NCBI GenBank assembly: GCA_947179485.1
Contig: OX359245.1
Location: 44,379,067 to 44,443,066, forward strand
Origin: Allacma fusca
Taxonomy: Eukaryota; Arthropoda; Collembola; Symphypleona; Sminthuridae
Direction: 5' to 3'
Length of the DNA stretch: 64,000 bases
The notes under the pieces were generated by a model. It was not told the origin of the DNA. It was given only the letters and a program-made list of their open reading frames with translations, and did no database searches. Each line of letters starts with the position of its first letter. Within the stretch, counting starts at the first letter, position 1. The translations under genes were made by a program, and so were the position numbers. Shown piece after piece: positions 15,135 through 59,574 of the stretch.

Positions 15135-15241
15135 TTTGCCTTAAATGTCCTAGGATAAATAGGTGGAGACTTCTTGAAGCTTCTTCAAGAAGACGAAAAC
15201 GTTGCCTGTATAGACAGGTCAATTCAAAGCTGGAAGCTTTT

Positions 15242-15597
15242 TTACAATTGTCTTTAAAAAGACAGTTGGTATAATTGTCTCTTGAAAGACAGTTGGTAAA
15301 ATTGTCTCTTGTAAGACAGTTGGTAAAGTTGTCTTTAAAAAGACAATTGGGTAAATTGTCTTTAAAAAGACAGTTGGGTAATATTGTCTTAAAAAAGACA
15401 GTTGGGTAAATTGTCTTGAAAAAGACAGTTGGGTAAATTGTCTTGAAAAAGACAGTTGGGTAAATTGTCTTGAAAAAGACAGTTGGGTAAATTGTCTTGA
15501 AAAAGACAGTTGGGTAAATTGTCTTGAAAAAGACAGTTGGGTAAATTGTCTTTAAAAAGACAATTGGGTTGTTTGCTTTAGAAAACAGTTGGAATAA
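15242..15597. repeat. Array of about 12 palindromic 27-bp units
   Basis: About twelve tandem units follow the form AATTGTCTTnAAAAAGACAGTTGGGTA. Each is itself a hairpin (TTGTCTT, short loop, AAGACA[A/G]TTG). The five central units are identical (15412-15535) and the edges are diverged. The array lies about 100 bp upstream of the RepHel start codon on the minus strand, where it could act as a regulatory or structural region. A separate short palindrome (CTTCTTGAAGCTTCTTCAAGAAG) lies at about 15170-15193. Confidence 0.9.
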
Positions 15598-15790
15598 CAG
15601 CGTTCACCTCTGCATAGCACACAGGGCGCTTATGCTTCAAAGTTGATGAAACGTGGTGCTTGGAACCATTGCGCATGTGTGCTGATGAGTGAAAATTAGA
15701 CTGAACTCATGCGTGGAATAAACTCGTATGTATGTGCGGATGCTGATGATGCGTGTTAATAATTTATTTATTGATGCATGTTAATATAAA

Positions 15791-16209
15791 ATGATGAACA
15801 ACCACTATGGCAGGAAGCTGGCCAAGAATATGAACAACCACTATGGCAGGAAGCTGGCCAAGAATATGAACAACCACTATGGCAGGAAGCTGGCCAAGAA
15901 TATGAACAACCACTATGGCAGGAAGCTGGCCAAGAATATGAACAACCACTATGGCAGGAAGCTGGCCAAGAATATGAACAACCACTATGGCAGGAAGCTG
16001 GCCAAGAATATGAACAACCACTATGGCAGGAAGCTGGCCAAGAATATGAACAACCACTATGGCAGGAAGCTGGCCAAGAATATGAACAACCACTATGGCA
16101 GGAAGCTGGCCAAGAATATGAACAATCACTATGGCAGGAAGCTGGCCAAGAATATGAACAACCACTATGGCAGGAAGCTGGCCAAGAATATGAACAACCA
16201 CTATGGCAG
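15791..16209. repeat. 36-bp minisatellite, array 1 (about 11.6 copies)
   Basis: The tandem unit of 36 bp contains AACAACCACTATGGCAGGAA and GCTGGCCAAGAATATG. Copies are nearly identical; one variant, AACAATCAC, lies near 16123. Because 36 is a multiple of 3 and no stop falls in some frames, long open frames run along both strands. I treat these as repeat artefacts, not proteins. The same unit returns in array 2 on the other side of the cysteine-rich gene. Confidence 0.95.
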
Positions 16210-16304
16210 TAATAATATCAATAATAAAAAGTAAATAATAGTAATAATAATAGTCCTCATCATAATAATGATAGCATAAAATCAGTTCATTTTTTAATAA
16301 AAAT

Positions 16305-17007
16305 TTAGTCCGCCAACAACATGTCCTCTATTTGAACATCGGCGAATACGTCCTCAACTTGAACTGGGACTGGAACTTGAACCGCTGCGGGGATTCCCGG
16401 ATTGGGTACAGCCACGATCGGAAGCACCGGGTTCCTCTCAACGGGTTGCGATACCATCGGGTTGAGCATATTCTTGATGGCCTCCTGCTGTTCCATCACT
16501 CGTCGTATGTGCTGATGCAGCACACGCTGGTAGGCTTCCCCTGCCGGGGTTCGCCACTGACAGAGTGCGCAAAAGCGCTGGCCATCTGAAAAACCAAAAT
16601 TAAAAAATTATTGCGTCACTATTTAAATATAAACTCTACAAAGAATAAAAACAAATAAATGTTGGGAATAATACCTTTTATAAAGACGCACTTACAACCA
16701 TCACACACAAACCAGCCCCTGGGAGCGGGCGGCATTGGGACACCTTGTCCAGACAGTACGGGTTGCCCGCAGTACTCGAATCGGCAACGATCTAAGGAAT
16801 TGAAAACAAAATGATTAAATACATAATATATATTTATAAATAATAACATAAATAAATACATTTCAAACTCAAATACAGGATCTTACCCCAAGAAGTGCTC
16901 ACTGCATGATGGCAATGCACGCAGTACCGGCAGACTGTCCGGTTCCGGATGTTCGGGGCTCTCATGGGCACGTCAGCTCCGGGTGCACGTGGGCGGAATG
17001 GTAGCAT
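16305..17007 (-). CDS. Cysteine-rich putative zinc-binding protein carried by the Helitron, three exons
   Basis: My model is exon 1 17007-16887, exon 2 16791-16675 and exon 3 16585-16305. All introns are GT-AG and phase 1, and the total is 519 nt in frame (172 aa). Exon 1 starts MLPFRPRAPGADVPMRAPNI and holds CRYCVHCHH. Exon 2 holds DRCRFEYCGQ and FVCDGCKC. Exon 3 holds RFCALCQWRTPAGEAYQR, then a Gln/Val/Pro-rich tail ending in an acidic segment. The paired CxxC and HH motifs suggest two or more zinc sites, but I do not recognise the family. The gene lies on the same strand as RepHel, between two arrays of one minisatellite unit. That frame and splice phases hold across three exons suggests it is functional or recently was. 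It may be a captured host gene or a Helitron accessory gene. Base composition is more GC-rich than the surroundings. Confidence 0.72.
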
Positions 17008-17092
17008 GCTGTAAAAAATAAAAAAATAAACCACATTGTACAAACTTAAAAAAAAATCAATTCACCCACTGAGGCAGGGCGCTGGCCATCCA

Positions 17093-17509
17093 TGTCAGCC
17101 CACTATGGCAGGGTGCTGGCCAGGTCAAGAGCAACCACTTTGGCAGGAAGCTGGCCAAGATGAACAACCACTATGGCAGGAAGCTGGCCAAGAAGAACAA
17201 CCACTATGGCAGGAAGCTGGCCCGGATGAACAACCACTATGGCAGGAAGCTGGCCCAGAAGAACAACCACTATGGCATGAAGCTGGCCAAGAAGAACAAC
17301 CACTATGGCAGGAAGCTGGCCAAGAACAACCACTATGGCAGGAAGCTGGCCAAGAACAACCAGTATGGCAGGAAGCTGGCCAGTATGAACAACCACTATG
17401 GCAGGAAGCTGGCCAGTATGAACAACCACTATGGCAGGAAGCTGGCCAGTATGAACAACCACTATGGCAGGAAGCTGGCCAGGATGAACAACCACTATGG
17501 CAGGAAATA
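17093..17509. repeat. Minisatellite array 2, same unit as array 1 but variable length
   Basis: About twelve units of ACCACTATGGCAGGAAGCTG are joined by linkers such as GCCAAGAAGAACA, GCCCGGATGAACA and GCCAGTATGAACA, giving unit lengths of about 30-33 bp. Orientation is the same as array 1. It starts with two more diverged units (GGCAGGGCGCTGGCC, GGCAGGGTGCTGGCC). Again it leaves long open frames on both strands with no recognisable protein. Confidence 0.92.
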
Positions 17510-20374: not shown

Positions 20375-22294
20375 ATGATTCACTTATTTTTCGTCTTAAT
20401 AGTTATTTATTTGTTTTTTTCTAAGGTCCAACAGCTCACGACATCTCTGAAACTACCACCAGGTATAAATCCAAGCAAATAATTTTTTCTTAATAATTAA
20501 TCCGGATATTTATGAATGCAGGCTTAATAATTGTTTTTATAGGTCCATTGAATTTCCCATTTATCGGTAATTTACAATGGCTTGCGAAGTTTCCCTGGAA
20601 GCATTTTTCCAATTATGGAAAGATTTATGGCCCGATTACTTACTTGAAAATGGGAAAAGCACGGTAGGCTTCAGCAAGCGTTCAAAAGAAATTCTATGAA
20701 ATGTTCTAACGCTTTGTGAATTTAACTTATGTGAATGTGAATTCAATTGTGAGTACAAAAACATATTTTATTTTGTAGTGCATTTCTTCTCAATGACATT
20801 ACGACTTGGAAAGCAGCATATTGTCGGCCAGAGCTAAGTCGACATCCAGGAAAACTGTTTGAAATGATTTTGGAAAACAAAAGTATGATTCGATTATATT
20901 ATGATTTGTGATCATAAAATTAAATAAACGAAATCAGTTTTTTATACTTTTTATTACGAATTTATAGGCATCATTTTTGGTAACGGAAATCCGGAAATTA
21001 AACAGTACATGACCAAAATCTTGAATGAGTTTGGAAAAAACAATCTAGAAAGTTTGGCATTGCAAGAAATTTCCTTGCTTCGCCAAAAATTTTTAGAATC
21101 TAATGGCAAACCCGTATACGTTCATTCCATGTTTGCCATACCAACGGTAAATGTAATCTGGACGCTACTATTTGGGAAACGGATTGAGGATGATGACAAA
21201 AGTTTACATGAATTTGCTGAGGAAATCACGACGTAACACAAGTCATTCATTTACAATTTATTATTTAAATTTGGCTTTGCGTTTCTTCGTTTATTGATTT
21301 AGTAATGACGTGTTGAAATTATTTGTATTTTAGTAGCTCAAATGACTCCTCATTTTTGGGACGGCAGTCGGTATTATCTTTAATGCCCTATATGAACAAA
21401 TTTTTCCCTTCCTCGCGAAACGAATTCCTTCGAACTGGCATGCTGAAATCCATTAAAATTATTAAAGAAAGAATAGAAAATCGCGCACGGAGTCGCCAGA
21501 AGTTTGAAATCAGCAATATAACTGATGCTTATTTTGAAAAAGAGGAACAAACTGATCCAAAGTCCAACTCTTTTTTTGCAGGAGGTAGTTCAACTTCCTA
21601 TTTTGTTTCAGTTCTATGAAGTTTGAATGCTATTTGATTGAAATTATTTTCAATTTTGTTTACTGCAGATACTTCTATTCATTTTGTCTACATGGGTTTA
21701 TTTATGGCTGGTGCGGACTCAACAAGTACATGCTTAGAGTGGTTAATCCTGTTTTTGGCATCTAACCCGTCTGCGCAAAAGCGGTTTCAACAAGAAATCG
21801 ATCTAGTTATTGGAAATCGAGATCCCTCTTTAGTTGACAGGGAAAGAATGCCGTACACATTAGCAGTTATTCAGGAAACGTTTAGGCTCTCAGTAATTTC
21901 GATTACACAATTCCGGCAAGCCAAAGAGGACACAAAACTTCTAGGATACGATATTCCTAAAGGATCCATACTGATTCCAAATGTCTACGCTATTAACACA
22001 GACCCCAATGTGTGGCTAGAACCGGATGAATTTAGACCTGAGAGGTTCCTCAATGAAAATGGTATGTTTGAGAAAAGTGACAAATTTTCAACTTTTGGAT
22101 ATGGGAGGAGATCATGTCTTGGAGAAAATATAGCACGAAATGAGATATTCATCTTTGCTACAAGTATTTTTCAACACTTTAATTTAAAAATTGATGGTAG
22201 CATTCCCTCACTGCATGGAAACTTTGGGTTTCTTCACCATCCCAATCGATTTAATGTGTGTTTTGAAAAGCGAAACAATTACATACGTATTTAA
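20375..22294 (+). CDS. Cytochrome P450, copy A, six exons, complete
   Basis: This is a microsomal haem-thiolate monooxygenase that looks like the CYP2 clan. Exons are 20375-20462, 20543-20663, 20779-20882, 20968-21232, 21334-21584 and 21669-22294. Introns are GT-AG and short, and the sum of 1455 nt is exactly in frame (484 aa, the usual P450 length). Residues 1-17 form a hydrophobic membrane anchor, followed by the Pro-rich hinge LPPGP (28-31). The I-helix oxygen-binding motif AGADST is at 290-295, ExxR as ETFR at 346-349, PERF at 400-403, and the haem loop FGYGRRSCLG has its ligand Cys at 426. All catalytic landmarks are intact. A polyadenylation-like AATAAA lies near 22380. Substrate cannot be inferred; such tandem P450s often act in xenobiotic or hormone metabolism. 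Of the three copies in the window this is the only one with no visible defect. Confidence 0.93.
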
Positions 22295-22543
22295 GTATAT
22301 CCAGAATACCAGACTTGTAACTAATGTAAAATTAATGCTTTTGTAATATACTTTTGTTATAAGTATTTAACTGGTTAATAATAAATCAGAATAATTCAGA
22401 AACGAACACTAATATATTTTTAAAATACTGCATATCTGAAAATCTGCATATCATGTGATCTTGAAATATGTTTAATATATTTTATATATATTATATTGTT
22501 TCTCACGGGTGCATAAGTTGACTCCGGCTAATATAACTCGACG

Positions 22544-22741
22544 ATGCAACCTGGTCCTGAAATTTGGTTTTTAGAAAGGGAAACTTTCTTATACATTTAT
22601 GTGATCCTCCCGCCCAAGGTTCGTAGGCTCGATATCTCTTTAACAGAACAACTTAACGAAATTATACAAGTACCAAAAAATAACTTATTCGCTGTTGTTG
22701 TGCCTTATCATACTTTCGATCACAAGCTGCTGTCAGGTTAA
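22544..22741 (+). CDS. Hypothetical 65-aa ORF downstream of P450-A
   Basis: The open frame starts MQPGPEIWFLERETFLYIYV and contains NNLFAVVVPYHTFDHKLL. It lies about 250 bp after the P450 stop. The same ORF is kept after P450-B (43431-43628) with three amino-acid changes, and is decayed after P450-C (about 55803-55995). The frame ends next to a donor-like CAG|GTTAAT, so it could be an exon of a larger gene. I do not recognise it; conservation may only reflect recent duplication. Confidence 0.3.
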   Translation: MQPGPEIWFLERETFLYIYVILPPKVRRLDISLTEQLNEIIQVPKNNLFAVVVPYHTFDHKLLSG

Positions 22742-22821
22742 TTGCAAATAATTCAAATCTATAAAATCATTACTGCAAGGACATCAATCGCCACATATCG
22801 GAAGAATTATATACTACGCAA

Positions 22822-23266
22822 CAGGGTTGGTTTGGTTTAAACCAAACGGTTTTTTTAATAAAAACCAATGGTTTAAACCAAACACCTAAAATTTTATTAT
22901 TTTCAATCCAAAATGCTTATATTTCGTCGTGCACAAAACTTGTGCAGTTACTGTGATATTGTGTAGTTAAACTTTAGTGAAGTAAACAATACTATTAGCT
23001 TTTAGTCTTGTACATTTAGAAATTCGGAATCGTTTGTAAAATGAAAAATGCCAAACTTGTGTTTATGCTGCAAAGTTATCGTTAAAATTTTATCTAAATT
23101 ATTAAATATTTAATGCTTTGTGATACTTACTGAGTTTTGGAAATAAGTAAATTTGTTCAAATTCACATGTTTTTGCATATTAATGAATGTTTTGGATTGA
23201 AAATTTGTTTAAACCAAAAAAACCTGGTCTGAACAAAAAAAAACGATTTAAACCAAAAAAAACCTG
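22822..23266. mobile_element. Non-autonomous TIR element (CAGGGTTGG... type, hAT-like)
   Basis: The left end is CAGGGTTGGTTTGGTTTAAA. The right end, reversed, is CAGGTTTTTTTTGGTTTAAA. The motif GGTTTAAACCAA recurs near both ends. Copies B and C lack this sequence at the matching place, which supports an insertion into block A. A clean 8-bp target duplication is not visible. It has no coding capacity. Confidence 0.6.
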
Positions 23267-32197: not shown

Positions 32198-32963
32198 ATT
32201 TTGAACATTTCTGACCCCCTCCCCCTAAATCACATACAATCAAATGATGCATACCCCCTCCATCATAACATCATTTGTTGCTGAAGCCATCGTAGGTGTA
32301 TATACATTATGTAAGATAGTAGTTGTCCTTGATTAAAGATTCCTGCGCGATATTCACATATAGATTCATGCTGTCCTCTGCATTAATAGTAGGAACTAGT
32401 ACTGCACAGCCTGCTATTGCTGGCTTCGAAAGGCTTCATAGTTTGTTGGTTCAGTCGCATAGCACATGATTCAGAAAAATCTGACTGCAAGGCTAGTAGA
32501 TATATAAACATTAACAGAGAAAGGCTAATGGTTTAGTCGGCTAGTATCAAAATATTCTAGACAAAATGATACAGATAATGAGATTCATAAACTGACTTCG
32601 CCAATGGAAAATACACGCCAATTGTAAATACATGCATATTACATACCACAAATAAACCGGGTAGTTCCCAATCAGAACATAATGTTGGCTAATGGTTGGC
32701 CCCACTGTTCTTAAGTTGGCGCAAGAACTGTTGGGCTTATGGTTTCATTTTCGGTTGGGAAAACGTTGGGCCAGTGTATTATTACCCATCGCGTACATAT
32801 GATGCACGCATGCTGGAGTTACCGGGTGCTTATTTAAGTTCGCGCAAGCGTTTATGCGACCTAAACGCCACGCGGAGTTCTGATATTAGTTCGGCGTCCG
32901 GCAACAGCATTGCGGCCTTCAAAGTTTCAAGTAAGTGTTTACTTTTTTTGTAATTTCTAAAAA

Positions 32964-34638
32964 ATGGCACTGAAACCTTTTTCGACCAAAACGCTATTCT
33001 CGGTTGTGACTTTTACGGAAGAAAATTCCATCGAAGTAATTCCAACTAAATGGATTTACAGTAATTGGAAGAAATGTAAATGTCCAGCAGACTTGAAGAC
33101 ATTTTCAAAGCTCAGATCTAAGCCAGAATCGGAACGCCAAAAAAGCTGGGTACCGTACGCAATCGAAGTGAAATGCCAAACAGGTAATAATTTGTTGCAC
33201 TAATTTGGCCGTGCTGTCTTAAATATTATAGATGTAACAACCGTATCAGAAATTTGTTTTCACATGTATTTTTTAATTGAAATGTATCCAAATCTTTAGA
33301 CGAGTATATGTCAGCCCAAAACCAAGCCCAACACCTTCAATTTACGTCCAATATTGAGTCGTCCGATTCAGGGACTGAAGGTCTTCAGGCCCGTAAAAAA
33401 CGGAAGACAAAACCAACTCAAAAATATCAGAATTCGAATAATTCCTTCAAGTCAAGCAAGAAGCCTGCTCCAATTCAGGATGACGGTTCATCAGAAGATG
33501 ACGAAGAGGCATTGCATATTGCTATGGAGACTCCGACGAATTTAGCTCCACTTTATAAACGTAAATTGACTTACTTTTAACATATTCTATGCTTTAAATA
33601 GGTTTTAAAATTATTGTATTAGTTTACTCAGAAAGAATTAATTTGAAATGCAGAACCAAGCCAACTAAATCATGTCATCAGTGATCCAGAAGAGACCTCC
33701 CGTAGTTCCAGTGAAAATTACAGTCAGAATTCTATAGCTTCAGCTTCAACTGGTACACCGAGCCCCTTCTTAGTGACGGATCTTCAAGCCGAATTAAGAC
33801 GTAAAAAAATTATAAAAAATAATAATTTTATTCTAAAACTATTTGTTGACTATATAGATTGACCACACTATTGTAGCCCCACTAAGTTATTAGCAAGTTT
33901 GAAATCACTTTTTGCTCTTCCCGATAGGCTTTCAGGAAGTAGTTTTGACAGAACTGCATACTATTAAAAGTGATGTTGAGATCGTGCGATCAGCTGTAGT
34001 CCGAAATAATTCTCGTCAGAATCCTGAATGTCCCTTTCACCGGCCGCTTTCAAATAATGCTGATCTCCAAGCAGCGGAAGAAAGTCTAAAGGACAGCAAG
34101 GATATTTTTGTACGTAAATACTAAAAAGTTAAAATATAGATTCGCTTTAAATGATTTAATGATAACGTATTTGATCACACATGCAGAAGAACTGGTGTGT
34201 GTCACTCGGAGGAACGTCAGCTGAAAGTCACACTCGGAGAATTCTTGGTAAATTGTTCAAGCATGAATATTCGCTGGAATTCAATTTTACTGGCAAGAGA
34301 GGAAAGCAGTCATTTTCTAAGCTTGTGATGTGCGAAGTAGTCACCAGTTAGTTGCTTTTTGAATATTTAAATAATATTTGATTTTTTCAGTAGCAACTTG
34401 TGCGGATAATTTTGAATGAGTAATTTGCTTTCTAGCACAATACTGCACGGGACAATTACCTTATACATATTTCTGTTACTGTAAATTTACAAAGCCGTGA
34501 TATAATTTAAAAATTTACTGTCTGTATGTAGGCGCTGTATTGGAGTCGCATAGAACCACTGAATGTGCAGTAGAAGAAGTTATCTCAAAATGGTTTCGTT
34601 ATGGACGCGACAGAAATGGAGGAAGAAGTAAACGCTAA
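32964..34638 (+). CDS. DUF4806-type protein, first gene of the CMC transposon, six exons
   Basis: Exons are 32964-33183, 33300-33560, 33654-33800, 33928-34109, 34187-34346 and 34532-34638. All introns are short and GT-AG, and the sum of 1077 nt is exactly in frame (358 aa). The N terminus FSVVTFTEENSIEVIPTKWI (about 12-31) matches the amino-terminal module common in insect DUF4806 proteins. A Ser/Lys-rich, acidic, probably disordered middle follows (about 75-210). The C-terminal DUF4806 region is residues about 271-345, with KNWCVSLGGTSAESHTRRIL and FNFTGKRGKQSFSKL. It is likely a nuclear DNA-binding or transposase-partner protein, comparable in position to TnpA of plant CACTA elements; that role is inference. 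It ends 107 bp before the transposase start on the same strand, and the left terminal repeats lie just upstream, where its promoter must be. Confidence 0.82.
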
Positions 34639-34745
34639 AACAGCTAATCATACTACAGAAGTTGTCTGAATTTTTTCGATTTTTTTCGAACTTCGATTGT
34701 TTTACTGCTGTATTTTAAATCAATCATTTATTAATATTTACGAAA

Positions 34746-36671
34746 ATGAACTCTCAAATAAGTCCTAGTACTAAGCATAGGTATAGAAAGAAGCAAGTGC
34801 AAAAACACCTTAGCCATATTAGAAATGAAAATCCTCATAAGGAGTACATAGAACAATCCAGCAGTATTAACAATGAGGTTTGTCAAGTTTATGTGTCACG
34901 CAACAATCTAAGCGATAGTTCAAGTTTGTCAGAGACTAGCGAGAGTGAAACTGAGAAAACCACAGAGCAGGATTTTAGAACTACCCTTGCTCAATGGGCT
35001 TTAAAGCACAATATAACGCACCTTTCACTAACAGATTTGTTATATCTTTTAAAGAAGAAATTTCCAGTTGAGGATTTACCATTGAGCACCAGAGCATTGC
35101 TACATACGCCAGTTCTACCCAAAAATATTTTATATTTAAGAAATGGGCAATTTTTTTATTTTGGAGTTAAAGAAACTGTAAAAGCAAGGCTTGATTTGGG
35201 TATGAAAAGTTTTCGTTTGCCTACACATAGGAATTTTGATAATCTAATACCATCTGAATGCATCACAATTAATTTAGGGCTTGATGGTTTACCCATTAGC
35301 AAAAGTACAAAACGAGAGTTTTGGCCTATTCTAGCCGTTGTTAATCAATCCGTCAGTCAAATACCAATTGTTGTAGGCATTTACTACGGCACTGAAAAGC
35401 CCAGGGCTGAGGACTTACTTGGGAATTTAGTTGTAGAACTAAATCAGCTTGAAGAAAATGGATTCTTATATAAAGAGAAAATTTATACATTCAGGATTTG
35501 TTGTATTGTTGCTGACGCTCCAGCTAGATCTTTAATTAAACAGACCTCACTATATAATGCGTACAACGGGTGTGATCGTTGTATTCAAAAGGGAGTGTAC
35601 AATGGCAGGGTCACCTTCCCCGATCTTAATTGTCCTGTTAGAACTGACGATGAGTTTAAAACTGGAAATTACAATTCGCATCATAACGGAATAAGTCCTT
35701 TTCTCCCACTTAAAGTTGGTTTAGTTAGTCAGGTCGTGCTCGATTACATGCACCTTTGTTGTTTAGGAATAATGAAAAAGTTTTTAAAACTCTGGGTTGT
35801 CGGGACTATACCTCATAAGCTTAGATCTAGAGATGTTAATTTACTTAATGATAACATTAAATTGACTCGTAAATATTTCCCTTGCAATTTTAACAGGAAA
35901 CCACGATCTGTTTTTGAAGTTAAAAATTGGAAAGCTACGGAATTTCGTTGTTTCATGTTGTATACTGGAGTATTTTGTTTGCGTAATGTACTGTGTAAAG
36001 ATAAATATAAGCATTTTTTGTTGTTTAGTGTAGCAATGCATATCTTATTGTCAAAAAATGATGTAGACGAAGCATGGGTAAATTTTGCTGACAGTTTGCT
36101 TAAAAAATACGTAGCGTTAATTCCTAAATTGTATTGCCCAACATTGTTAGTGTATAATGTCCATTCCTTGATCCACTTAGCGCAAGACTGTAAAATTTAC
36201 GGCTCTTTAGAATCCTGTAGTGCTTACGTGTTTGAGAATTTTATGCAGACGTTAAAAAAATTATTACGAGGTAAGAATATGTTCATGGAACAAATTATAA
36301 ATCGAATAAGTGAACAAGAGTATTTTCGGGGTGGAAATCTTCAGTTGCGTTCCTCTACCAGCACATACAAATTTTTGTCATTTGTTAAGCCTTGTGAAGC
36401 CATCAGTGCTGATAATTGTGTTATTCTGAATTCGGGCACTGTTTGTGTAGTTTCATCCCGACAACGAAACAATTTTTATTGTCGAAAGTTTACGGAAAAA
36501 TCTAATCTGTCTTGTTTTCCTTGTGACAGCTCTTTGCTGGGTATTTCAAATGTATCCAATCTATCAAATACTGTAGAAATAGTTCCAATTGAAGATATTG
36601 TACGAAAATGCTTCATTTGTCCTTACTGTATTGAAGCAAACATATTTATTTGCATACCTTTAGTTGAATAA
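34746..36671 (+). CDS. tnp2-type transposase of the CMC transposon, intronless
   Basis: The single 641-aa open frame begins at the first ATG after the DUF4806 gene. The N-terminal 80 residues are basic then Ser/Glu-rich. The core shows LGLDGLPISKSTKREFWPIL (about residue 178), CIVADAPARSL followed by YNGCDRC (about 250-280) and the hallmark VLDYMHLCCLGIMKKFLKLW (about 330). AYVFENFMQTLKKLLRG (about 492) supplies a conserved acidic position. This is the DDE-fold layout of the tnp2 family, found in animals as EnSpm/CMC-like transposases. The C-terminal 60 residues hold CFPC and CFICPYC, possibly a zinc finger. No stop or shift interrupts it, so it may be active or only recently inactive. Confidence 0.85.
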   Translation: MNSQISPSTKHRYRKKQVQKHLSHIRNENPHKEYIEQSSSINNEVCQVYVSRNNLSDSSSLSETSESETEKTTEQDFRTTLAQWALKHNITHLSLTDLLYLLKKKFPVEDLPLSTRALLHTPVLPKNILYLRNGQFFYFGVKETVKARLDLGMKSFRLPTHRNFDNLIPSECITINLGLDGLPISKSTKREFWPILAVVNQSVSQIPIVVGIYYGTEKPRAEDLLGNLVVELNQLEENGFLYKEKIYTFRICCIVADAPARSLIKQTSLYNAYNGCDRCIQKGVYNGRVTFPDLNCPVRTDDEFKTGNYNSHHNGISPFLPLKVGLVSQVVLDYMHLCCLGIMKKFLKLWVVGTIPHKLRSRDVNLLNDNIKLTRKYFPCNFNRKPRSVFEVKNWKATEFRCFMLYTGVFCLRNVLCKDKYKHFLLFSVAMHILLSKNDVDEAWVNFADSLLKKYVALIPKLYCPTLLVYNVHSLIHLAQDCKIYGSLESCSAYVFENFMQTLKKLLRGKNMFMEQIINRISEQEYFRGGNLQLRSSTSTYKFLSFVKPCEAISADNCVILNSGTVCVVSSRQRNNFYCRKFTEKSNLSCFPCDSSLLGISNVSNLSNTVEIVPIEDIVRKCFICPYCIEANIFICIPLVE

Positions 36672-36964
36672 AGCATGTTATTAAACTTTATATAGATGCA
36701 CATATTAAATTTTTTAGAGTTTCACTTCGTATGTATCATACTTCATATCGTGCCTTTAAATATGGCATACGCATGAAAGTGGGTAAATGGTTGGTTAAAT
36801 GCCCGTAAAATGTTGGACATTTAGTTAGGGCCAACGTGATCCCAACTGTCATCGCCAATTGCTGGCCAATTACTGTGCGCCAACGTTGGGCCAACGAATG
36901 CTTTTGGATTGGGTTAGCCTTTAAGGTAATTGGTACTCTCACTCGCAAACCAATAGGAGTTACG

Positions 36965-37445: not shown

Positions 37446-39874
37446 GTCCCCGATCATGTAGGTATGTACTTACACCTTAACATTATTGGACTGATCAGTG
37501 CTTCTTGTTAATGACTATGCAACTTCTATACAGCAATAAAATGTGGAATGAACTTGCGATAAACAAAGTTATCTTTCTCACTCATTACGCAGAACAATTC
37601 ATTGTCAGACTTCTTTATTCTTGAAGGGTAAAATTTTCATGCAGTTAAGCACACCTTGATGAATAAATTACTCCTGACTCCTGAGTTGCTGTATTTCTCG
37701 AAGTTACAGTAGTTAAACGGATTGAGTATGGAGAAAACCATTAGGTACTTATGTGCAGAAATGCGTGACTGTAGTAAATGTATTTCCCACGTTGTGTTGG
37801 TGTGGATTCTTCACTTTTCTTTTTAATACAAACGAGGATTTTTTATTATAGGAATGAAATTAATAGTCATTCGTAAAAACATATGCTACTCTATGGACTC
37901 CCGGGGTGTAAATGTTGTAAGGGCTAGGGCTAAATCATTCCTTAATAAATATATTTACCAATCTATAGGCTTGCTAAGAAGTATCGTAATTGTTTACATT
38001 AGTAACCATGTCATTGGTGCCTTTGTTTACATTTGTAGCTTTTTTAGGTGTTACTTGTACAAGACTCGGGGAATAATATGGTAATGCAAGAAACCGTTTC
38101 CTCAATGTGTTTACAGATAAGCACAGTCCACATGACATTTGTAAACATTTATCCGGTCGAAAATGGAATCATAATATTAATTTATTCATATTTTTTGAAA
38201 CAAGTACAAGAAGGAGTATGATTTCTGTAGATTTCTAGAACCCGTAGAACAACAGGTCAGAGTTGGGTGTGAGGTAGTTAAGGGGAAACTAGGAAAAGGA
38301 ATTCCCGCAGCGTGGGTGAGAGTCGTGGTAAAATGCTATGTTAAGTAATTATAAATGTGTTGATGATTAAACTTGTGCTTAAAATAGCGAACAGCATGCG
38401 CTTCGGTTGTTAGCTAATATAATTATAATAAATTACTGTATAAATAAATACACTTACACTAAGAAAAATATTCCTACAACCTAGTAGGGAGATATTATGC
38501 TTATTAGAAAAGTATCCTAATGCGATCAACCACACGGGAGTAAGTACACATGATCTGAAATTCAGAGAAATTAAATCCCTTAAAAGTTGCGAAATAGCGG
38601 ATATTATTATGATTTCGTAAATTATCTGTACGTGTCAATTTATGTAACCATCTTTTAAATTATGCATTATTTGACTACACATGCACAAGTATATTTGACG
38701 TAAAGATTCATGTGTCCACCACCGCACTGATTACAAACCTCTTTCATTTTTATTAAACCAAAGCAGCACGAAGTTACTATATTTCTTCCTATATTTGAGG
38801 CAACCTAAAAGATATTTGGAGGACTAAGTAAATTGACGTCAAAATCTATGTCATATGGTCGCATATTCTACCTAAACATATATAGGTACAACAAAATTTT
38901 CATTCAACCGTTTTCAATAACCGTGGAACCTGATTTTTCAATATTGTAACCAGCTGTGTTCGTGAGCATAGCACACTTTCAATATTACCGGTGGCTAATA
39001 ATATTTTGTTGTAATAGACTATTTTCCTATCCCAAGACGTTTAACAGTGGTATGTACGACGGAGAGGTTTATAGTGAAAGAACCTTGAACCTTTGAAGTC
39101 TCATTTATCAGGAGTTTACGGGAGAGGGAATATGTTATAGCTAGAATTATGCGTATGTATATCATTTGCTCATCCACCTCCATAGTTTACGTCAACGTTC
39201 CTTGAAAGCCGCTACCTGTTTTTGCAAAACCTTTATCTCCTATGTACATCAGCCCGTACGAGGGCAGATGTTAAAACAATTGTTCATTTGAGCTCCCCCT
39301 TTTTGTAGCACATTTTCATACAGATTTTTCAAAATTCGTTTTATTCTATGGTAGCTCAGAAAATGTGGTTACAAAATTCAAGGAGGCAGGGCAAAGTCAC
39401 AATTGTTTTTCAAAAACTGTAATTTTGAGTTTTCAAATTTTACACGATTTCTACGCTGGTAGTACTTTCTAGAAAATTTCCTTGACTTTTGACAGAGCTA
39501 CTAAACAAGTTCCTTTGTTTAGAATTGTGAGCATGATCGGCACAAACAGAGAGTTGTGAATTGGGAAAAATCAGTTTCAGGGGCAAAAAAGTGAGCAAGA
39601 CTGGGAAAGAGAAGATTCCTGAACTAACCATTTTTGCAAGGATGATCTGGCGTTCACAATATATTCGAGAACATTTTATAGTAGCAAATTTCATGGAGAC
39701 TCATTTGTGCCAAACGAGATCTTTCTGTCAACATTTGTGTGCACGAGGGCAAAAAACGTGAGACATGTTTAAAATAAACCCAAAAATGTTTACTCGTATT
39801 TCACCTTCTTTAAATCTTGTCCAAAACCTCTTTATGCAACTTTAAAAATAACAATTACTTAAACATTACACAAC

Positions 39875-40471
39875 CAGAGGTGTCCATTTGAAATCGCCTT
39901 TGTTCATCCTTAAGAAGGGTGACAGTTTCCAATTACCCGTTCCTTCATCGTTCCGTAAAATGAAGCCTTCTGAATATTTACCCTTCCTTCGCCCTTCCTT
40001 CATTCAAATCCTGCTATAATCCTTCCTTCAGCCTTCAAAAAATATGTAAATGCCCTTCATGCGTTACCTTCCTTCTATGTTCATACATTTATCCCAAATC
40101 TTTTAACACAAGTCACAAAGTCAGATCTTTAAACTTCCAGCTGCTTACCTCTGAAAAACTAATAATTAGCTTGTAATTAATTGCAATTATTGCAGATTAT
40201 CCGTACATATGTAAAGTAAAGGGAATAAAATGCTTGTTGTTGAATTGAAAAAAATTGTTGAAAAATTGTAAGTTCCGAACGGCGTTCGAAGGCTCTAAAA
40301 TTAACATGTTCCTTCACATTCCATTATTTCTGCAAAGAGCAGAGGCCTTCGTTCATCCTTCGTTTCCTTTCCAGCCTTCCTTCCGTTCCCTTCATAATTG
40401 CCAAAGCTAACGCTTCATTCGTTCAAAGAAGCCTTCTTTGAAGGAAATCCTTCGAAGGATGGACACCTCTG
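39875..40471. mobile_element. Non-autonomous hAT-type element, CCTTC-rich
   Basis: The 597-bp element has TIRs CAGAGGTGTCCAT / ATGGACACCTCTG and a perfect 8-bp target duplication TACACAAC (39867-39874, 40472-40479). The interior is built from CCTTCCTTC / GAAGG-type motifs that also form the inner end sequence. It is present in C (52244-52831), where the right tip is missing, and absent from A, so it inserted before B and C separated. Confidence 0.88.
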
Positions 40472-41321
40472 TACACAACAGCGTGTGTTATTCATCAATA
40501 TTTCCTGCAGGCTGATCCTTGTGGAAAATTCTGTGTTGAATAATTGTACCAGCATTCTTGATATCCTGGCCAGATCATTTCCTGGTGAAAAACGGTAATA
40601 AGTTTTCCTGTATATATGTACATACACGCATATTGAACCAATGTATTACGTCACCTGGACTACTCAAGTAAGTTTTTTGTCTTAGTTGTTTTGTTAAGTT
40701 AGAGACACTCGAACCAAAATTTTCTAGAAAGATAACAAATTAAAAAGATCACAAAATAAAATCCCCACTTGCGTAAATACATGGAATATCCTCAGTACAT
40801 GAGAAAATCCTTGGAAATAACAAAATATTATTGTAACGTGTACTGAGGTCCAATCTGCTGAGAGTATCTGAAAAATCTGGAACCAATTATCTCTGATATA
40901 TCGGATGAGCAAATCGTAAAAACATGTCTGAATAAATTAATATTCAACAACCGAGTAGATTTTAACAAGATTCGATAATAATCCGAGTAGACAACAACTA
41001 CCCTTAGAAATTTCAAAAACATTGAAGCTCTCATAAACTTTTTGATCAAATAAGGAAGTTAAAACTGGTTTGGAATTCTACGAATCCTAACTTGTAATGC
41101 ACATGCCTACCATTTAACGTTTTATCTTACAAACCAGTAAATCACATTGGTATGGACGTGCTTGAGAAACTTGCAAGGATTTATTTTTTGTCTTTCCAAG
41201 AGTCAGACTTGTGGGTATGCATATGTACATAGAACACGCTGTGAAAATTGAATAAAAGTAACTGTACTCGCAAAATATGCCAGGTATTTACAGTCTTGTG
41301 CTGACCGTAAATAGATCGAAA

Positions 41322-43205
41322 ATGATTCACTTATTTTTCGTCTTAATAGTTACTTATTTGTTTTTTTCTAAGGTCCAGCAGTCTCCGAAACTACCACCAG
41401 GTATGAATGTGAACAAATAATTTTTAATCTTAATAATTAATCAGAAAATTTATGAATACAGGCCTAATAATTGTTTCCATAGGTCCATTGAATTTCCCAT
41501 TTATCGGTAATTTACAATGGCTTGCGAAGTTTCCCTGGAAGCATTTCTCCAATTATGGGAATATTTATGGCCCGATTACTTACTTGAAAATGGGGAAAAC
41601 ACGGTAGGCTTCAAGCGTTCAAAAGAAATTCTATAAAATGTTCAAACGTTTCATTTAAGACATTCGAATTCAATTATGAGTACAAAAACATTTTCTATTT
41701 TGTAGGGCGTTTCTTCTCAATGACATTACGACTTGGAAAGCAGCATATTGTCGGCCAGAGCTAAGTCGACATCCAGGAAAACTTTTTGAAATGGTTTTGG
41801 AAAACAAAAGTATGATTTCGTTATATATTATGATCATAAAATTGAATAAACTAAATTCGTTTTCTTATAATTTTTTTTACTAATTTACAGGCCTTTTTTT
41901 TGGGTAACGGAAATCCGGAAATTAAACAATACATGACCAAAATCTTGAACGAGTTTGGAAAATACAATCTGGAAAGTTTGGCATTGCAAGAAATTTCGTT
42001 GCTTCGCCTAAAATTTTCAGAATCTAATGGCAAACCCGTAGACGTTCATTCAATGTTTGCCATACCAACGGTAAATGTAATCTGGACGCTACTATTTGGG
42101 AAACGGATTGAAGATGATGACAAAATTGTACACAAAGCTGCAGAGCAAATCACAACGTAATGCAAGTCATTCATTTACAATTATTCAAATTTGTGTTTCT
42201 TCGTTTGGCTTTTTAATGATGCGTTGAAATTATTTGTATTTAAGTAGCTCAAATGACTCCTCATTTTTGGGACGGCAGTCGGTATTATCTTTAATACCCT
42301 ATATGAACAAATTTTTCCCTTCCTCACGAAATGAATTCCTTCAAACTGGCATGCTGAAATCCATTAAAATTATTAAAGAAAGAATAGAAAATCGCGCACG
42401 GAGTCGCCAGAAGTTTGAAATCAGCAATATAACTGATGCTTATTTTGAAAAAGAGGAACAAACTGATCCAAAGTCCAACTCTTTTTTTGCAGGAGGTAGT
42501 TCAACTTCCTATTTTGTTTCAGTTCTATGAAGTTTGAATGCTATTTGATTGAAATTATTTTCAATTTTGTTTACTGCAGATACTTCTATTCATTTTGTCT
42601 ACATGGGTTTATTTATGGCTGGTGCGGACTCAACAATTACATGCTTAGAGTGGTTAATCCTGTTTTTGGCATCTAACCCGTCTGCGCAAAAGCGGTTTCA
42701 ACAAGAAATCGATCTAGTTATTGGAAATCGAGATCCCTCTTTAGTTGACAGGGAAAGAATGCCGTACACATTAGCAGTTATTCAGGAAACGTTTAGGCTC
42801 TCAGTAATTTCGATTACACAATTCCGGCAAGCCAAAGAGGACACAAAACTTCTAGGATACGATATTCCTAAAGGATCCATACTGATTCCAAATGTCTACG
42901 CTATTAACACAGACCCCAATGTGTGGCTAGAACCGGATGAATTTAGACCTGAGAGGTTCCTCAATGAAAATGGTATGTTTGAGAAAAGTGACAAATTTTC
43001 AACTTTTGGATATGGGAGGAGATCATGTCTTGGAGAAACTATAGCACGAAATGAGATCTTCATCTTTGCTACAAGTATTTTTCAACACTTTAATTTAAAA
43101 ATTGATGGTAGCATTCCCTCACTGCATGGAAACTTTGGGTTTCTTCACGATCCCAATCGATTTAATGTGTGTTTTGAAAAGCGAAACAGTAACATATGTA
43201 CTTAA
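41322..43205 (+). pseudogene. Cytochrome P450, copy B, frameshift in exon 4
   Basis: This is homologous to copy A, with exons 41322-41400, 41483-41603, 41706-41809, 41891-42156, 42245-42495 and 42580-43205. Exon 4 is 266 nt instead of 265: GCATCATTTTTGGTAACGG of copy A reads GCCTTTTTTTTGGGTAACGG here. The extra base puts TAA in frame at once. All other exons are clean, including AGADST (with Ile for Ser two residues later), ETFR, PERF and FGYGRRSCLG. Exon 1 is nine bases shorter than in A (LQSPKL-type end). The defect lies in a homopolymer, so an assembly error is possible. Taken as is, the product would stop after about 105 residues, before any catalytic motif. Confidence 0.85.
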
Positions 43206-43430
43206 CATGCATTTTTAACCAATGTAAAATTAGTGCTTTTGTAATATACACTTTTGTTATAAATATTTAACTGGTTCAGAATAAATCAGAATAATTCAGA
43301 AACAAACAAATATATTTTTAAAATATTGCATATAGTGATCTTGAAATATGTTCAATATATTTTATATATATTATCATATATATTGTTTCTCACGGGTTCT
43401 TAAGTCGACTTCAGCTAATATAAATCGACG

Positions 43431-43628
43431 ATGCTACCTGGTCCTGAAATTTGGTTTTTAGAAAAGGAAACTTTCTTATACATTTATGTGATCCTCCCGC
43501 CCAAGGTTCGTAGGCTCGATATCTCTTTAACAGAACAACTTAACGAAATTATACAAGTACCAAAAAATAACTTATTCGCTGTTGTTGTGCCTTATCATAC
43601 CTTCGATCACAAGCTGCTGCCAGGTTAA
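43431..43628 (+). CDS. Hypothetical 65-aa ORF downstream of P450-B
   Basis: It starts MLPGPEIWFLEKETFLYIYV and is equivalent to 22544-22741, at the same distance after the P450 gene. It differs at three residues and ends at the same donor-like CAG|GTTAAT. Function is unknown; it may be an exon or a chance frame preserved by recent duplication. Confidence 0.28.
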   Translation: MLPGPEIWFLEKETFLYIYVILPPKVRRLDISLTEQLNEIIQVPKNNLFAVVVPYHTFDHKLLPG

Positions 43629-44128
43629 TTGCAATTAACTAAAATCTATAAAATCGTTACTGCAAGGACATTCAATCGCCACAAAGCGGACGAATTATAA
43701 ACTACGTAACAGGTTGACATTATACAACTTGAACTATTAATCAAAAAACCAGGGTTCACCATTGGATTGTCCATAAATAACGTACAAGCTCATCCACCAA
43801 GGCATCATGTAGAAATGGCTTTCCCCCGATTAACTGTTAACTTCTATAATTGTAACAAGTGTGCAAATTTCACTTTCCTGCAACTGCAAATAAAGTTTGC
43901 TTAAATCGGTGTAATACACGGATTTTTTTAAAATGTTTACTTCGCTCGTTTGTTCCTCGTTTAATTCATAATTTAACTTTAAACGAAGTGGTTATTCAAG
44001 TTGTCAAGAATTTCCACAACGGGAAACAAAGTTCAGTTGGTCCAAAAAAACTAAGCCAACATAAAATAAAATATTACGATTAGACGTAGAAGTTTTAATT
44101 TTTAGGTCAACATAATACGCTCACTGGT

Positions 44129-46248: not shown

Positions 46249-47750
46249 TTAGCTATCACTCCCATCATCGCTGTCATCACTGTTACTGTCACTGTCACGT
46301 ACAGAATCATTGTCCTGGTTGATCTTTGATTTTGTAGTGAATTCGACCAAGTACTTAATACTGACTTGCTGAGAGTTGAACACAATATATTCATTGTAGT
46401 CCAGGGCGTGGTAACGATTTTTCTCCAGAATCTGATCCGTCCTTTCACCCAATGGTACGAAGCGATCTACTCAAATCAAAATCAGGCACATTTAATTATT
46501 TTATTCATTTCATAACCACAGAGAAGCAAAATTTTACTCTTAAAAAAATGTCTTATGGGCGTCTCAAAATTCCTGTCTGTAAATCTCTGTAAAAGGATTT
46601 TCTCAACGGGTATTTTCTAGACAAAATCTCGTTATCACTTTAATAAAAAAAATAACTTGCTTTGCCAGAGAATGGTTGCCCCGGTATTAGGTTCGTAGCG
46701 TGAGTCGGCCGTCTTGAGACTGTGAAATCCTTGAGGGAGTTTTGCCATCTTCTCACTCATATTGTGTGTATTAACACTGTGTATGTTTCCTAGAGCCACC
46801 TCGCAGAGCAACAGGTATTGTCGTTGGCCCTCTCCGGTGTAGTGACTGCTTTTGGTGAACATATCCGCGAAGTAAATCCCTTTCCCGAACAAGCTACCAT
46901 TGAGTTCCGTCCCAATCGGGGTGACTTGAAGTCCGCTGCTCAAAATGCTTAAGAGGTTCACTGACCTCGTACCATGCCAGAGGAGCCAGCGGTTCCCGAT
47001 ACCACTTTCCCTCATGGCATCCGCCTCACCCTGTCGTTCCACCCGGAATATATTGAGAACCGTGGGTTTACCCGAATACTGCTCTTTCCCCGTATTGTGA
47101 ACGTTCTGCAAAATCATCTGAGCTTCAAAGTCCTCCCGGTCCAGAAGTTGGATCTTGGTGTTGAGGCAGGAGTAAATATACTCCATTGGGTTACGATTCT
47201 TCACATTGTAAAGACCCGCAAAGAGGAGCTGAGATGCGAACTGTATATGGAGAATTTTGTGTATCATCTCCTGCCGTTCTCGAACATTATCCGTATTCAA
47301 AATGGGCTGGATCCTTTCCGCTGCGAACCCGTAAACTGGTATGACAGAGTAAAATTCCTCACTGGCTTCAACGATCGACTCCATCAGAACCTGCTCTTCT
47401 GCTTTTGATTTCGCATCACTCTGGTCCATTTTTGTTTTTTCTCCTATTAGCCCCTCTATTTTTCTAAGGATTTCCTCACCTATGTACAATATATAACAAA
47501 AACTGTGTAATAAGATGGCCATGAAACTACAGGAATAGGAACATTAATTTTCTGATGTCAAAAAGTTTATGAAAATTTCCTGTTTTTGACATCCAGCGCC
47601 CACAAATACTAAAAATCATTTTTGATATGTGACATCCCGTCAAGCCGGTCAGCCGTCTTTCAGCAATAAGCTAGAACTAACCTTTTTCTAATGTGTCTGG
47701 AGTAACTAATCCGAAAGGCAAGTCCTCCAAGTCCCTTCCAGAGTGGCCAA
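46249..47750 (-). pseudogene. PARP (poly/mono-ADP-ribosyltransferase) gene fragment, three 3' exons
   Basis: These are the C-terminal exons of a PARP2/3-like gene. The exons are 47750-47682 (DLPFGLVTPDTLEKG, end of an exon entering the regulatory domain), 47479-46661 and 46469-46249. The middle exon holds the helical regulatory domain (SEEFYSVIPVYGF, IHKILHIQFASQLL), then the ADP-ribosyltransferase fold with WLLWHGTRS (His) and GSLFGKGIYFADMF (Tyr). The last exon holds ALDYNEYIVFN (catalytic Glu) and an acidic Ser/Asp-rich tail. The last intron seems to start with GC (CAAA|GCAAGTT), a known minor donor class; with GT the frame fails. Everything upstream (WGR and DNA-binding parts) is missing: homology stops at about 47750, where Helitron remnant and block C begin. 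It is therefore a truncated gene, unless the 5' exons lie elsewhere. Confidence 0.8.
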
Positions 47751-47752
47751 GT

Positions 47753-47865
47753 TACCCTTCTCGCAGTATCAGTTACAACGACCTTGATATACCTCGAAAA
47801 AGAAACGTAGTTGTCAATGTGAAAGTAAATGCCAACTTTACCTAAACTTTGTCCACGATGTCCCC
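47753..47865 (-). mobile_element. Helitron helicase remnant at left edge of block C
   Basis: ACCCTTCTCGCAGTATCAGT and CCTCGAAAAAGAAACGTAGT repeat 37340-37440 almost exactly, including the fusion CGATGTCCCCGATCATGTAG into the duplicated block. The remnant therefore travelled with the block when B and C separated. Confidence 0.8.
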
Positions 47866-50930: not shown

Positions 50931-51604
50931 CAGTGTACTCTCTGTATAAGAGCACCCCTAAAAGCACTCCAAAAGCGCTCTTATAACGGTATGCTCTTAT
51001 AAGGAATATGTATCTAAATACAGTAAAATACTGGCTATACATTATTAAGAATTTCGCTAACATAATTGCGCTTACTAATACATCAAGAAGTGCGCTAAAT
51101 AAGACATCACTAAACAATACATAAGATTCCAGGGTAAACCAAATTTAATTAATAAATAATCTGTTTTATACTATTCATTTTTGGTTGGAATGAAATAGTA
51201 ATTTGGGTGGGTCTGTAGAGATTTATTGCAAGATTTTTGCCTACAATATTTTTATTTGCATTCAAATAATCGATTAATGCATGTTCATATGAATCTTTAT
51301 TACAAAATAGCCTCTTGTGTATACAACTTCGTCGTTACCAATTCCACTACACTGTTGACATTGGCGCTGTAGGTGTTTTTGTACGAACGTTTTGTAATCG
51401 TTTCTATATCTGCTCATATGCTCTTATAAAGGATTTATTTTAACGTAAGGAAGTAAAATGTCTGCTCTTACATCGCAAATGCTCTTATAAACGGTGCTCT
51501 AATAGGGAACACTTACAGCACTACAATCCCATTGGGAGGACCTGGGAGTGCTCTTATACAGAACATGCTCTTATACGGAGGCCTCTTACAGCGAGAGTAC
51601 ACTG
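50931..51604. mobile_element. pogo/Tc1-mariner-type MITE (674 bp) with TA target
   Basis: The ends are CAGTGTACTCTCTGTATAAG and, reversed, CAGTGTACTCTCGCTGTAAG. They are flanked by TA on both sides; block B at about 39234 has the uninterrupted CCTTTATCTCC. The motif GCTCTTATA/TATAAGAGC recurs more than ten times throughout. It has no transposase. Confidence 0.9.
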
Positions 51605-52243
51605 TATCTCCTATGTACATCAGCCCGTACGAGGGCAGATGTTAAAACAATTGTTCCTTTGAGCTCCCCCTTTTTGTAGCACATTTTCATACAGATTTTT
51701 CAAAATTCGTTTTATTCTGGTAGCTCAGAAAATGTGGTTACAAAATTCAAGGAGGCAGGGCAAAGTCACAATTGTTTTTCAAAAACTGTAATTTTGAGTT
51801 TTCAAATTTTACACGATTTCTACGCTGGTAGTACTTTCTAGAAAATTTCCTTGACTTTTGACAGAGCTACTAAACAAGTTCCTTTGTTTAGAATTGTGAG
51901 CATGATCGGCACAAACAGAGAGTTGTGAATTGGGAAAAATCAGTTTCAGGGGCAAAAAAGTGAGCAAGACTGGGAAAGAGAAGATTCCTGAACTAACCAT
52001 TTTTGCAAGGATGATCTGGCGTTCACAATATATTCGAGAACATTTTATAGTAGCAAATTTCATGGAGACTCATTTGTGCCAAACGAGATCTTTCTGTCAA
52101 CATTTGTGTGCACGAGGGCAAAAAACGTGAGACATGTTTAAAATAAACCCAAAAATGTTTACTCGTATTTCACCTTCTTTAAATCTTGTCCAAAACCTCT
52201 TTATGCAACTTTAAAAATAACAATTACTTAAACATTACACAAC

Positions 52244-52831
52244 CAGAGGTGTCCATTTGAAATCGCCTTTGTTCATCCTTAAGAAGGGTGACAGTTTCCA
52301 ATTACCCGTTCCTTCATCGTTCCGTAAAATGAAGCCTTCTGAATATTTACCCTTCCTTCGCCCTTCCTTCATTCAAATCCTGCTATAATCCTTCCTTCAG
52401 CCTTCAAAAAATATGTAAATGCCCTTCATGCGTTACCTTCCTTCTATGTTCATACATTTATCCCAAATCTTTTAACACAAGTCACAAAGTCAGATCTTTA
52501 AACTTCCAGCTGCTTACCTCTGAAAAACTAATAATTAGCTTGTAATTAATTGCAATTATTGCAGATTATCCGTACATATGTAAAGTAAAGGGAATAAAAT
52601 GCTTGTTGTTGAATTGAAAAAAATTGTTGAAAAATTGTAAGTTCCGAACGGCGTTCGAAGGCTCTAAAATTAACATGTTCCTTCACATTCCATTATTTCT
52701 GCAAAGAGCAGAGGCCTTCGTTCATCCTTCGTTTCCTTTCCAGCCTTCCTTCCGTTCCCTTCATAATTGCCAAAGCTAACGCTTCATTCGTTCAAAGAAG
52801 CTTTCTTTGAAGGAAATCCTTCGAAGGATGG
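52244..52831. mobile_element. Non-autonomous hAT-type element, copy in block C, right end lost
   Basis: This is the same element as 39875-40471, almost identical. The last bases after CTTCGAAGGATGG, plus the start of the right target duplication, are replaced by AAAACACAAC. Presence in the same position as in B shows shared descent through the block duplication. Confidence 0.85.
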
Positions 52832-53683
52832 AAAACACAACAGCGTGTGTTATTCATCAATATTTCCTTCAGGCTGATCCTTGTGGAAAATTCTGTGTTG
52901 AATAATTGTACCAGCATTCTTGATATCCTGGCCAGATCATTTCCTGGTGAAAAATGGTAATAAGTTTTCCTGTATATATGTACATACACGCATATTGAAC
53001 CAATGTATTACGTCACCTGGACTACTCAAGTAAGTTTTTTGTCTTAGTTGTTTTGTTAAGTTAGAGACACTCGAACCAAAATTTTCTAGAAAGATAACAA
53101 ATTAAAAAGATCACAAAATAAAATCCCCACTTGCGTAAATACATGGAATATCCTCAGTACATGAGAAAATCCTTGGAAATAACAAAATATTATTGTAACG
53201 TGTTCTGAGGTCCAATCTGCTGAGAGTATCTGAAAAATCTGGAACCAATTATCTCTGATATATCGGATGAGCAAATCGTAAAAACATGTCTGAATAAATT
53301 AATATTCAACAACCGAGTAGATTTTAACAAGATTCGATAATAATCCGAGTAGACAACAACTACCCTTAGAAATTTCAAAAACATTGAAGGTTCTCATAAA
53401 CTTTTTGATCAATAAGGAAGTTAAAACTGGTTTGGAATTCTACGAATCCTAACTTGTAATGCACATGCCTACCATTTAACGTTTTATCTTACAAACCAGT
53501 AAATCACATTGGTATGGACGTGCTTGAGAAACTTGCAAGGATTTATTTTTTGTCTTTCCAAGAGTCAGACTTGTGGGTATGCATATGTACATAGAACACG
53601 CTGTGAAAATTGAATAAAAGTAACTGTACTCGCAAAATATGCCAGGTATTTACAGTCTTGTGCTGACCGTAAATAGATCGAAA

Positions 53684-59221: not shown

Positions 59222-59574
59222 TGTACACATACTCATACTGGCAAATACACAGGAGTCACGTAATTATATTGTTTTTCTCCTGACGCTGGATTGACTCCTC
59301 TTACTGGCTCCCGGAAGCACCAGGCTGTTATTGGCAACTGTAAATTGGCAAAAATTAGCAAAGGTTGTAGGTGCTTTCCGGGCCAATCCTCAGGCGAGTG
59401 ATACCTTTATTAATATTATTTACTCTCAGTCACTCCAAATTCGCCATAGTTACTATTATTCGCATCTTTTCTGGAAATATTCCTCCTGTTGTCAACATTT
59501 GCTACATAACTTGCTCCAGGACTTTTAACTCTTCCTAGGAAATCAAAATTACAAGCTCACCGGGACAAGAGGAT

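Follow-up and report, generated by a model that had tools for sequence, protein, structure and literature searches.

Does the DUF4806 protein that is encoded next to a transposase at this locus of Allacma fusca belong to the machinery of a transposon, or does it accompany the transposase for other reasons? The locus occupies 4,247 bp (32667-36913) of the window, by which we mean the whole 64-kb stretch of DNA that was analyzed, and the initial annotation had described it as a two-gene CMC element in which a DUF4806 protein is paired with a tnp2-type transposase and stands where plant CACTA elements carry TnpA. Our analysis upholds a single element with two intact genes and with ends and an enzyme of the CMC type; it does not uphold the match to the tnp2 profile (PF02992), the correspondence with the plant gene order or the statement that DUF4806 has no agreed function. 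We conclude that this is probably an intact, autonomous element of the TRC branch of the CACTA/CMC superfamily, and on balance we favor the view that its DUF4806 protein binds the arrays of short motifs just inside the two ends and assists or regulates transposition much as TnpA does in plants.

The evidence that carries this conclusion begins at the ends. Both boundaries of the initial annotation proved exact, and the 7-bp terminal inverted repeats start with CCC, as animal TRC elements do (PMC1636069; here and below, articles are cited for the parts of their text that were covered). Taken by itself the inverted pair is weak evidence, CCCAATC occurring five times and GATTGGG four times in the window; the boundary becomes convincing because CCAAC arrays concentrate at both ends, the 7-mers alone being common. 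The features of the element are, in order:

32665-32666, no strand: TT, putative 2-bp target duplication on the left, equal to the right flank (1 in 16 by chance)
32667-32673, plus strand: left terminal inverted repeat CCCAATC, from the sequence read and the CCC core in animal TRC elements (PMC1636069)
32684-32769, plus strand: left subterminal array, six GTTGG in the same orientation throughout (motif count)
32831-32930, plus strand: putative promoter and leader, with TATTTAA at 32831 and no ATG from 32855 to 32963; promoter and transcription start predicted
32931-32936, plus strand: leader 5' splice site CAA/GTAAGT, outside the DUF4806 gene model; candidate donor of a leader intron
32964-33183, plus strand: DUF4806 exon 1, with the start ATG (predicted splice model, translated)
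33300-33560, plus strand: DUF4806 exon 2 (predicted splice model, translated)
33654-33800, plus strand: DUF4806 exon 3 (predicted splice model, translated)
33928-34109, plus strand: DUF4806 exon 4, at whose end the DUF4806 match starts (splice model and Pfam)
34187-34346, plus strand: DUF4806 exon 5, bulk of the DUF4806 match (splice model and Pfam)
34532-34638, plus strand: DUF4806 exon 6 and stop codon (predicted splice model, translated)
34746-36671, plus strand: transposase, 641 amino acids, intronless (open reading frame, Pfam and motif search)
36667-36672, plus strand: AATAAA, without a second copy on this strand of the element; it overlaps the stop codon of the transposase (motif search)
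36790-36895, no strand: right subterminal array, with seven copies of GTTGG/CCAAC and, between them, two of CCAAT (motif count)
36907-36913, plus strand: right terminal inverted repeat GATTGGG (sequence read)
36914-36915, no strand: TT, putative 2-bp target duplication on the right (sequence read)

The crowding of GTTGG/CCAAC at both ends of the element is a new observation. Six copies lie in the first 150 bp, seven in the last 150 bp and six across the 3,947-bp interior; the 13 terminal copies are never reached when the ends are dinucleotide-shuffled 5,000 times, shuffling the whole element 1,000 times gives a maximum of 4, and when any 5-mer is allowed to count, the maximum in 1,000 end shuffles is 10 and 13 is never attained. 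Equal richness is found at one other place in the window, at about 15241-15620, where it coincides with a tandem array of a 27-bp unit. At the right end, four of the seven copies are inverted relative to those on the left, and the overall arrangement is largely inverted. The six CCAAY sites on the plus strand here (36831, 36842, 36855, 36866, 36880 and 36891, the last ending at 36895) follow each other in steps of 11, 13, 11, 14 and 11 bp, near one helical turn, and the palindrome CCAACGTTGG at 36880-36889 contains the sole CCAANNTTGG of the window.

Between these arrays lie two genes that are both open. The first, with six predicted exons spanning 32964-34638 on the plus strand, encodes 358 amino acids and a stop codon without premature stops, its five GT-AG introns measuring 116, 93, 127, 77 and 185 bp. 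The transposase frame begins 107 bp past this stop and is likewise free of premature stops. Translation thus agrees with the annotation of an intact six-exon gene on the transposase strand at this distance.

The transposase had been called tnp2-type, and this stands only indirectly. In the Pfam comparison that the initial annotation had proposed for both proteins, PF02992 (Transposase_21, tnp2) found no match up to E 10 in the whole protein or in either of two pieces. What does point to this class is a DUF4218 match at residues 452-514, which scores 24.1 bits with the whole protein and 25.5 bits with one piece, the other piece giving nothing. In plants, DUF4218 usually accompanies tnp2. Motifs described for TRC transposases point the same way. 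Box A, found in animal and three of four fungal transposases and not in plants (PMC1636069), is present at residue 332 as LDYMHLCCLG, an exact fit to the pattern given for eumetazoan transposases, [LVI]-D-x-[LM]-H-x3-L-G (PMC1636069); the pattern was matched in 3 of 20,000 shuffles, and in six-frame translations, counting stretches of 30 amino acids or longer (59,072 residues), the transposase alone contains a match. Animal TRC elements also have CCC terminal cores and 2-bp duplications, and most of the elements described have motif I of the Transposase_21 domain (PMC1636069, DeMarco et al. 2006). Here motif I fits at all positions except one, and the correspondingly relaxed pattern was met in none of 20,000 shuffles. 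TRC transposases further contain two aspartates 80 residues apart and a CxxC (PMC1636069); here Asp180 and Asp257, a pair chosen by eye at the motifs, have 76 residues between them, and three CxxC are present, CDRC at 276 and others at 590 and 622. An AlphaFold2 model from the single sequence reached a mean predicted local distance difference test score of 37.2 and was unfit for a fold search. All in all, the element is most likely a member of the animal TRC branch of CACTA/CMC, although the Pfam profile itself stays silent.

As to the DUF4806 protein, its C-terminal 147 amino acids match the Pfam profile (PF16064) with 25.4 bits (E 1.8e-5), above the cut-off of 25 bits; a match to DUF5725 is weak (E 0.087 and 0.02) and under its cut-off, and PDB sequence searches with both element proteins returned only weak, unrelated matches. 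That DUF4806 lacks an agreed function, as the initial annotation held, is out of date: it has been described in print as a subtype of the BEN DNA-binding domain (Pan et al. 2023, as cited in PMC11075544). Among BEN proteins, Drosophila Insensitive (Insv) binds as a dimer to CCAATTGG and multimerizes via a region beside its BEN domain (PMC6317261), and NAC1 selects ACATGT (PMC7764960). Insv resembles what we envisage here in binding a CCAAT-containing site and in forming multimers, but it is a protein of the host whose BEN domain is canonical, and it is not a DUF4806 protein (PMC6317261). By this analogy it is reasonable to suppose that a BEN-type protein binds the CCAAC/CCAAT arrays, the likeness of the motifs serving as a lead.

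The division of labor that we propose is as follows. The transposase would cut and join the CCC ends with a 2-bp stagger, while the DUF4806 protein, being of the BEN type, would multimerize, occupy the CCAAC/CCAAY sites at both ends and pull the ends together for the transposase. Its binding may also repress or tune transcription of the element, the left array being located directly 5' of the putative promoter (TATTTAA) and leader. TnpA represses or tunes transcription of maize Spm.

Both proteins could, as a prediction, arise by alternative splicing of one transcription unit. This is possible because the element has a single AATAAA, a strong leader donor that the DUF4806 model leaves unused, and a suitable order of ATGs. 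The donor CAA/GTAAGT at 32931 agrees with 8 of 9 positions of the donor consensus, the best among the 258 GT sites of the element. Of the five ATTAAA, two lie just 3' of the transposase; the 107-bp intergenic gap has none and offers only the weak variant TTTAAA plus an AATGAA spanning its end. In an unspliced RNA from 32855 onward, the first ATG is the DUF4806 start, and when the leader is joined to an AG within 34642-34661, the transposase ATG (34746) comes first. Retention of the leader would thus give the DUF4806 mRNA, and splicing of the leader to about 34644-34662 the transposase mRNA. Alternative splicing from one transcription unit has been reported for Spm and SmTRC1 (PMC1636069). A splice fusion of the two proteins was also considered. 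It is rejected at the gap's three AGs (34642, 34657 and 34660), where the transposase frame runs into a stop at 34716 ahead of the ATG; the check covered these three, four more AGs lying upstream (34612-34627).

Several observations weigh against the reading we favor. The DUF4806 match is marginal, the whole protein scoring 23.4 bits (E 7.9e-5), under the cut-off, and no BEN match to this protein appeared in the Pfam scan or the PDB sequence search. On the side of the transposase, the PF02992 match is missing, which does not exclude kinship, the DUF4218 score falls under its cut-off of 27 bits, and the strict motif I pattern fails at a single residue, S in place of F/Y. The TT/TT flanks have the 2-bp length of TRC target duplications, but such flanks would agree by chance once in 16 cases and are weak on their own, and a search of the window gave no empty site, the tandem duplicate of the P450 region beginning at 37339, outside the element. 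A single copy of the element is known; the best candidate for a further copy or short derivative within the window reached only E 0.06. The steps of the left array (11, 20, 15, 24 and 11 bp) are more irregular than those of the right. Finally, different BEN proteins select different sites, and CCAAC may resemble CCAATTGG by coincidence.

How far do these points open the way to other explanations? A TRC/CMC transposon may have captured a host DUF4806 gene by transduplication and carry it as a passenger without a role in transposition. The five introns of this gene and the lack of any in the transposase suggest separate histories, and articles on beetle (PMC13270666), zebrafish (PMC11075544) and mosquito (PMC11445403) list DUF4806 proteins as ordinary genes. 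Yet the captured gene would have had to remain intact, in the orientation of the transposase and wedged between that gene and the left array, leaving a gap of 107 bp and having no AATAAA of its own, and it would have had to bring to this slot the very kind of domain, DNA-binding, that the slot would need, as the DUF4806 type is reported to be (PMC11075544). We judge capture unlikely. That a one-gene transposon merely neighbors or encloses a resident, unrelated DUF4806 gene, its apparent ends being fortuitous, seems very improbable to us: the window does contain the two 7-mers repeatedly (5 and 4 copies), but the CCAAC arrays sit outside both genes, exactly at the ends and largely inverted, at a density attained in 0 of 5,000 shuffles, and to these are added the TT flanks and a CCC core like that of published TRC elements (PMC1636069).

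A different division of roles would keep the DUF4806 gene as part of the element and have its product act only as a repressor or silencing antagonist, outside the transposition complex. BEN proteins have been described as repressors or insulators (PMC6317261, PMC11732705), and the left array does lie upstream of the putative promoter; an array is, however, also present at the end where there is no putative promoter, which suits a synaptic role, and we give a purely regulatory function little credence. We thus return to a TRC/CMC element with a DNA-binding DUF4806 partner as the reading that we prefer.

Such an element has relatives to which it can be compared. With SmTRC1 and other animal TRC elements it shares the CCC core, a putative 2-bp duplication, box A, CxxC, the paired aspartates and the presence of extra proteins (PMC1636069), and its size of 4.2 kb is close to the approximately 4.5 kb of SmTRC1 (PMC1636069); what sets it apart are its 7-bp ends and its DUF4806 partner, the gene for which lies upstream. 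Published TRC ends include CCCAGTCAAC in Aedes and CCCTAGTAGC... in Tribolium (PMC1636069), and Hydra Spongebob (EnSpm-4N1_HM) has the CCC end CCCAGCCAACATTGAC and a 2-bp duplication (PMC4298943). The motif GCCAACATT of that Hydra end is also found here on the minus strand at 32681-32689, a likeness that may be due to chance; Spongebob in turn has a 5.8-kb consensus with no readable transposase, and the text covered describes no partner gene (PMC4298943). Compared with DUF4806 proteins elsewhere (PF16064), the C-terminal part fits the profile in the same way, and the difference is one of setting, the examples in the articles covered being annotated as genes and this one lying inside a transposon.

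Maize En/Spm is the system from which the comparison with TnpA derives. Its subterminal motifs are repeated, and it encodes the TnpD (transposase) part first and TnpA second. The likeness lies in two proteins, repeated subterminal motifs and possibly a single transcription unit, whereas En/Spm has CACTA ends, 3-bp duplications and TnpA encoded after TnpD. We know of no kinship between TnpA and DUF4806. Of the earlier proposal that DUF4806 sits in the slot of TnpA, what remains is a plausible DNA-binding partner together with CCAAC arrays that it may bind, in a gene order unlike that of plant Spm.

Searches of two contig collections added no relatives. A peptide pattern for the transposase, a single query suited to close relatives only, matched 7 stretches in viral_contigs and 24 in genome_contigs, a prokaryotic collection, and none was confirmed. 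A degenerate DNA pattern for DYMHL..LG..K matched no stretch in viral_contigs and 39 in genome_contigs, all with bacterial titles; at all 39 loci, tblastn gave a best E of 0.34 for the transposase and nothing up to E 1 for DUF4806. The DUF4806 protein matched 8 stretches in viral_contigs, none confirmed, and an Rfam scan found nothing at the gathering threshold. Looking for the DUF4806 family in one further genome and 14 controls likewise gave no match in any of them, a negative that carries no information.

The remainder of the window is rich in repeated and mobile DNA. Close to the right flank of the element, 37453-38053 is 93.8% identical to 9228-9821. Three similar P450 copies (21390-22829, 42301-43716 and 53352-56070; Pfam p450 confirmed on two) belong to a duplicated region whose pairwise blocks are 92.7-97.4% identical, for example 97.4% between 39231-43300 and 51602-55679. 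Just before the duplicated block starting at 47753, a minus-strand open reading frame (46635-47543) encodes PARP catalytic and regulatory domains. A Helitron occupies 10748-15140 on the minus strand, with Helitron_like_N and PIF1 in a frame of 1,217 amino acids and its helicase part running on, by eye, in another frame at 10748-11506; beside it, at 15246-17506, are three neighboring tandem arrays with units of 27, 36 and 33 bp, of which the latter two appear to be related and have several open frames. Two retroelements lie at 57236-59221, with gag/protease-like matches under the cut-off followed by a reverse transcriptase frame, and at 60511-63876, with a frame of 1,121 amino acids of the non-long-terminal-repeat type encoding endonuclease and reverse transcriptase; the frame preceding the latter (59539-60330) has no Pfam match.

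What the pairing may mean beyond this locus depends on DUF4806 in other animals. In Hydra, enriched domains include DUF4806, with 69 and 54 genes vs 6, 0, 1, 0 and 0 in five other cnidarians; the same list holds transposon domains, and CMC is among the largest classes of DNA transposons there (PMC7642931). DUF4218 stands in the H. viridissima-enriched list with 47, 13, 16, 0, 12, 4 and 5 (PMC7642931), a row that covaries only loosely with that of DUF4806. Table 2 of the same article is the place where DUF4218 and DUF4806 are both found enriched in Hydra. DUF4806 is also an enriched domain without assigned function in a beetle (PMC13270666), is carried by four species-specific genes in one chromosome region of zebrafish (PMC11075544) and occurs in one gene of Anopheles (PMC11445403). 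These occurrences fit an element-borne DUF4806 and prove nothing. Among the matches listed in the literature search, none linked DUF4806 or BEN to a CACTA-type transposase; subscription papers and Repbase fell outside its coverage, and the pairing may already be known to curators.

Taken together, we regard the locus as a well-anchored lead and not as the demonstration of a general rule. The second protein of SmTRC1 has been argued to take on the DNA-binding role of TnpA, and the part of that article covered reports no counterpart in other animal or fungal elements (PMC1636069); the DUF4806/BEN-type protein is a concrete candidate for this role in another element, with CCAAC as a testable site. 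Whether DUF4806 proteins are TnpA-like partners of animal TRC/CMC transposons generally, and many lineage-specific DUF4806 genes of Hydra, beetles and zebrafish their cargo or domesticated descendants, is a broader proposition that we advance only tentatively and on present showing consider rather doubtful. An element-borne DUF4806 would nonetheless offer an explanation for the enrichment of this domain in single animal lineages, and it carries the warning that DUF4806 genes annotated as host genes may be transposon genes. If DUF4806 does turn out to be a general partner of TRC/CMC transposases, some of the DNA-binding proteins of the BEN family would have been seeded by transposons.

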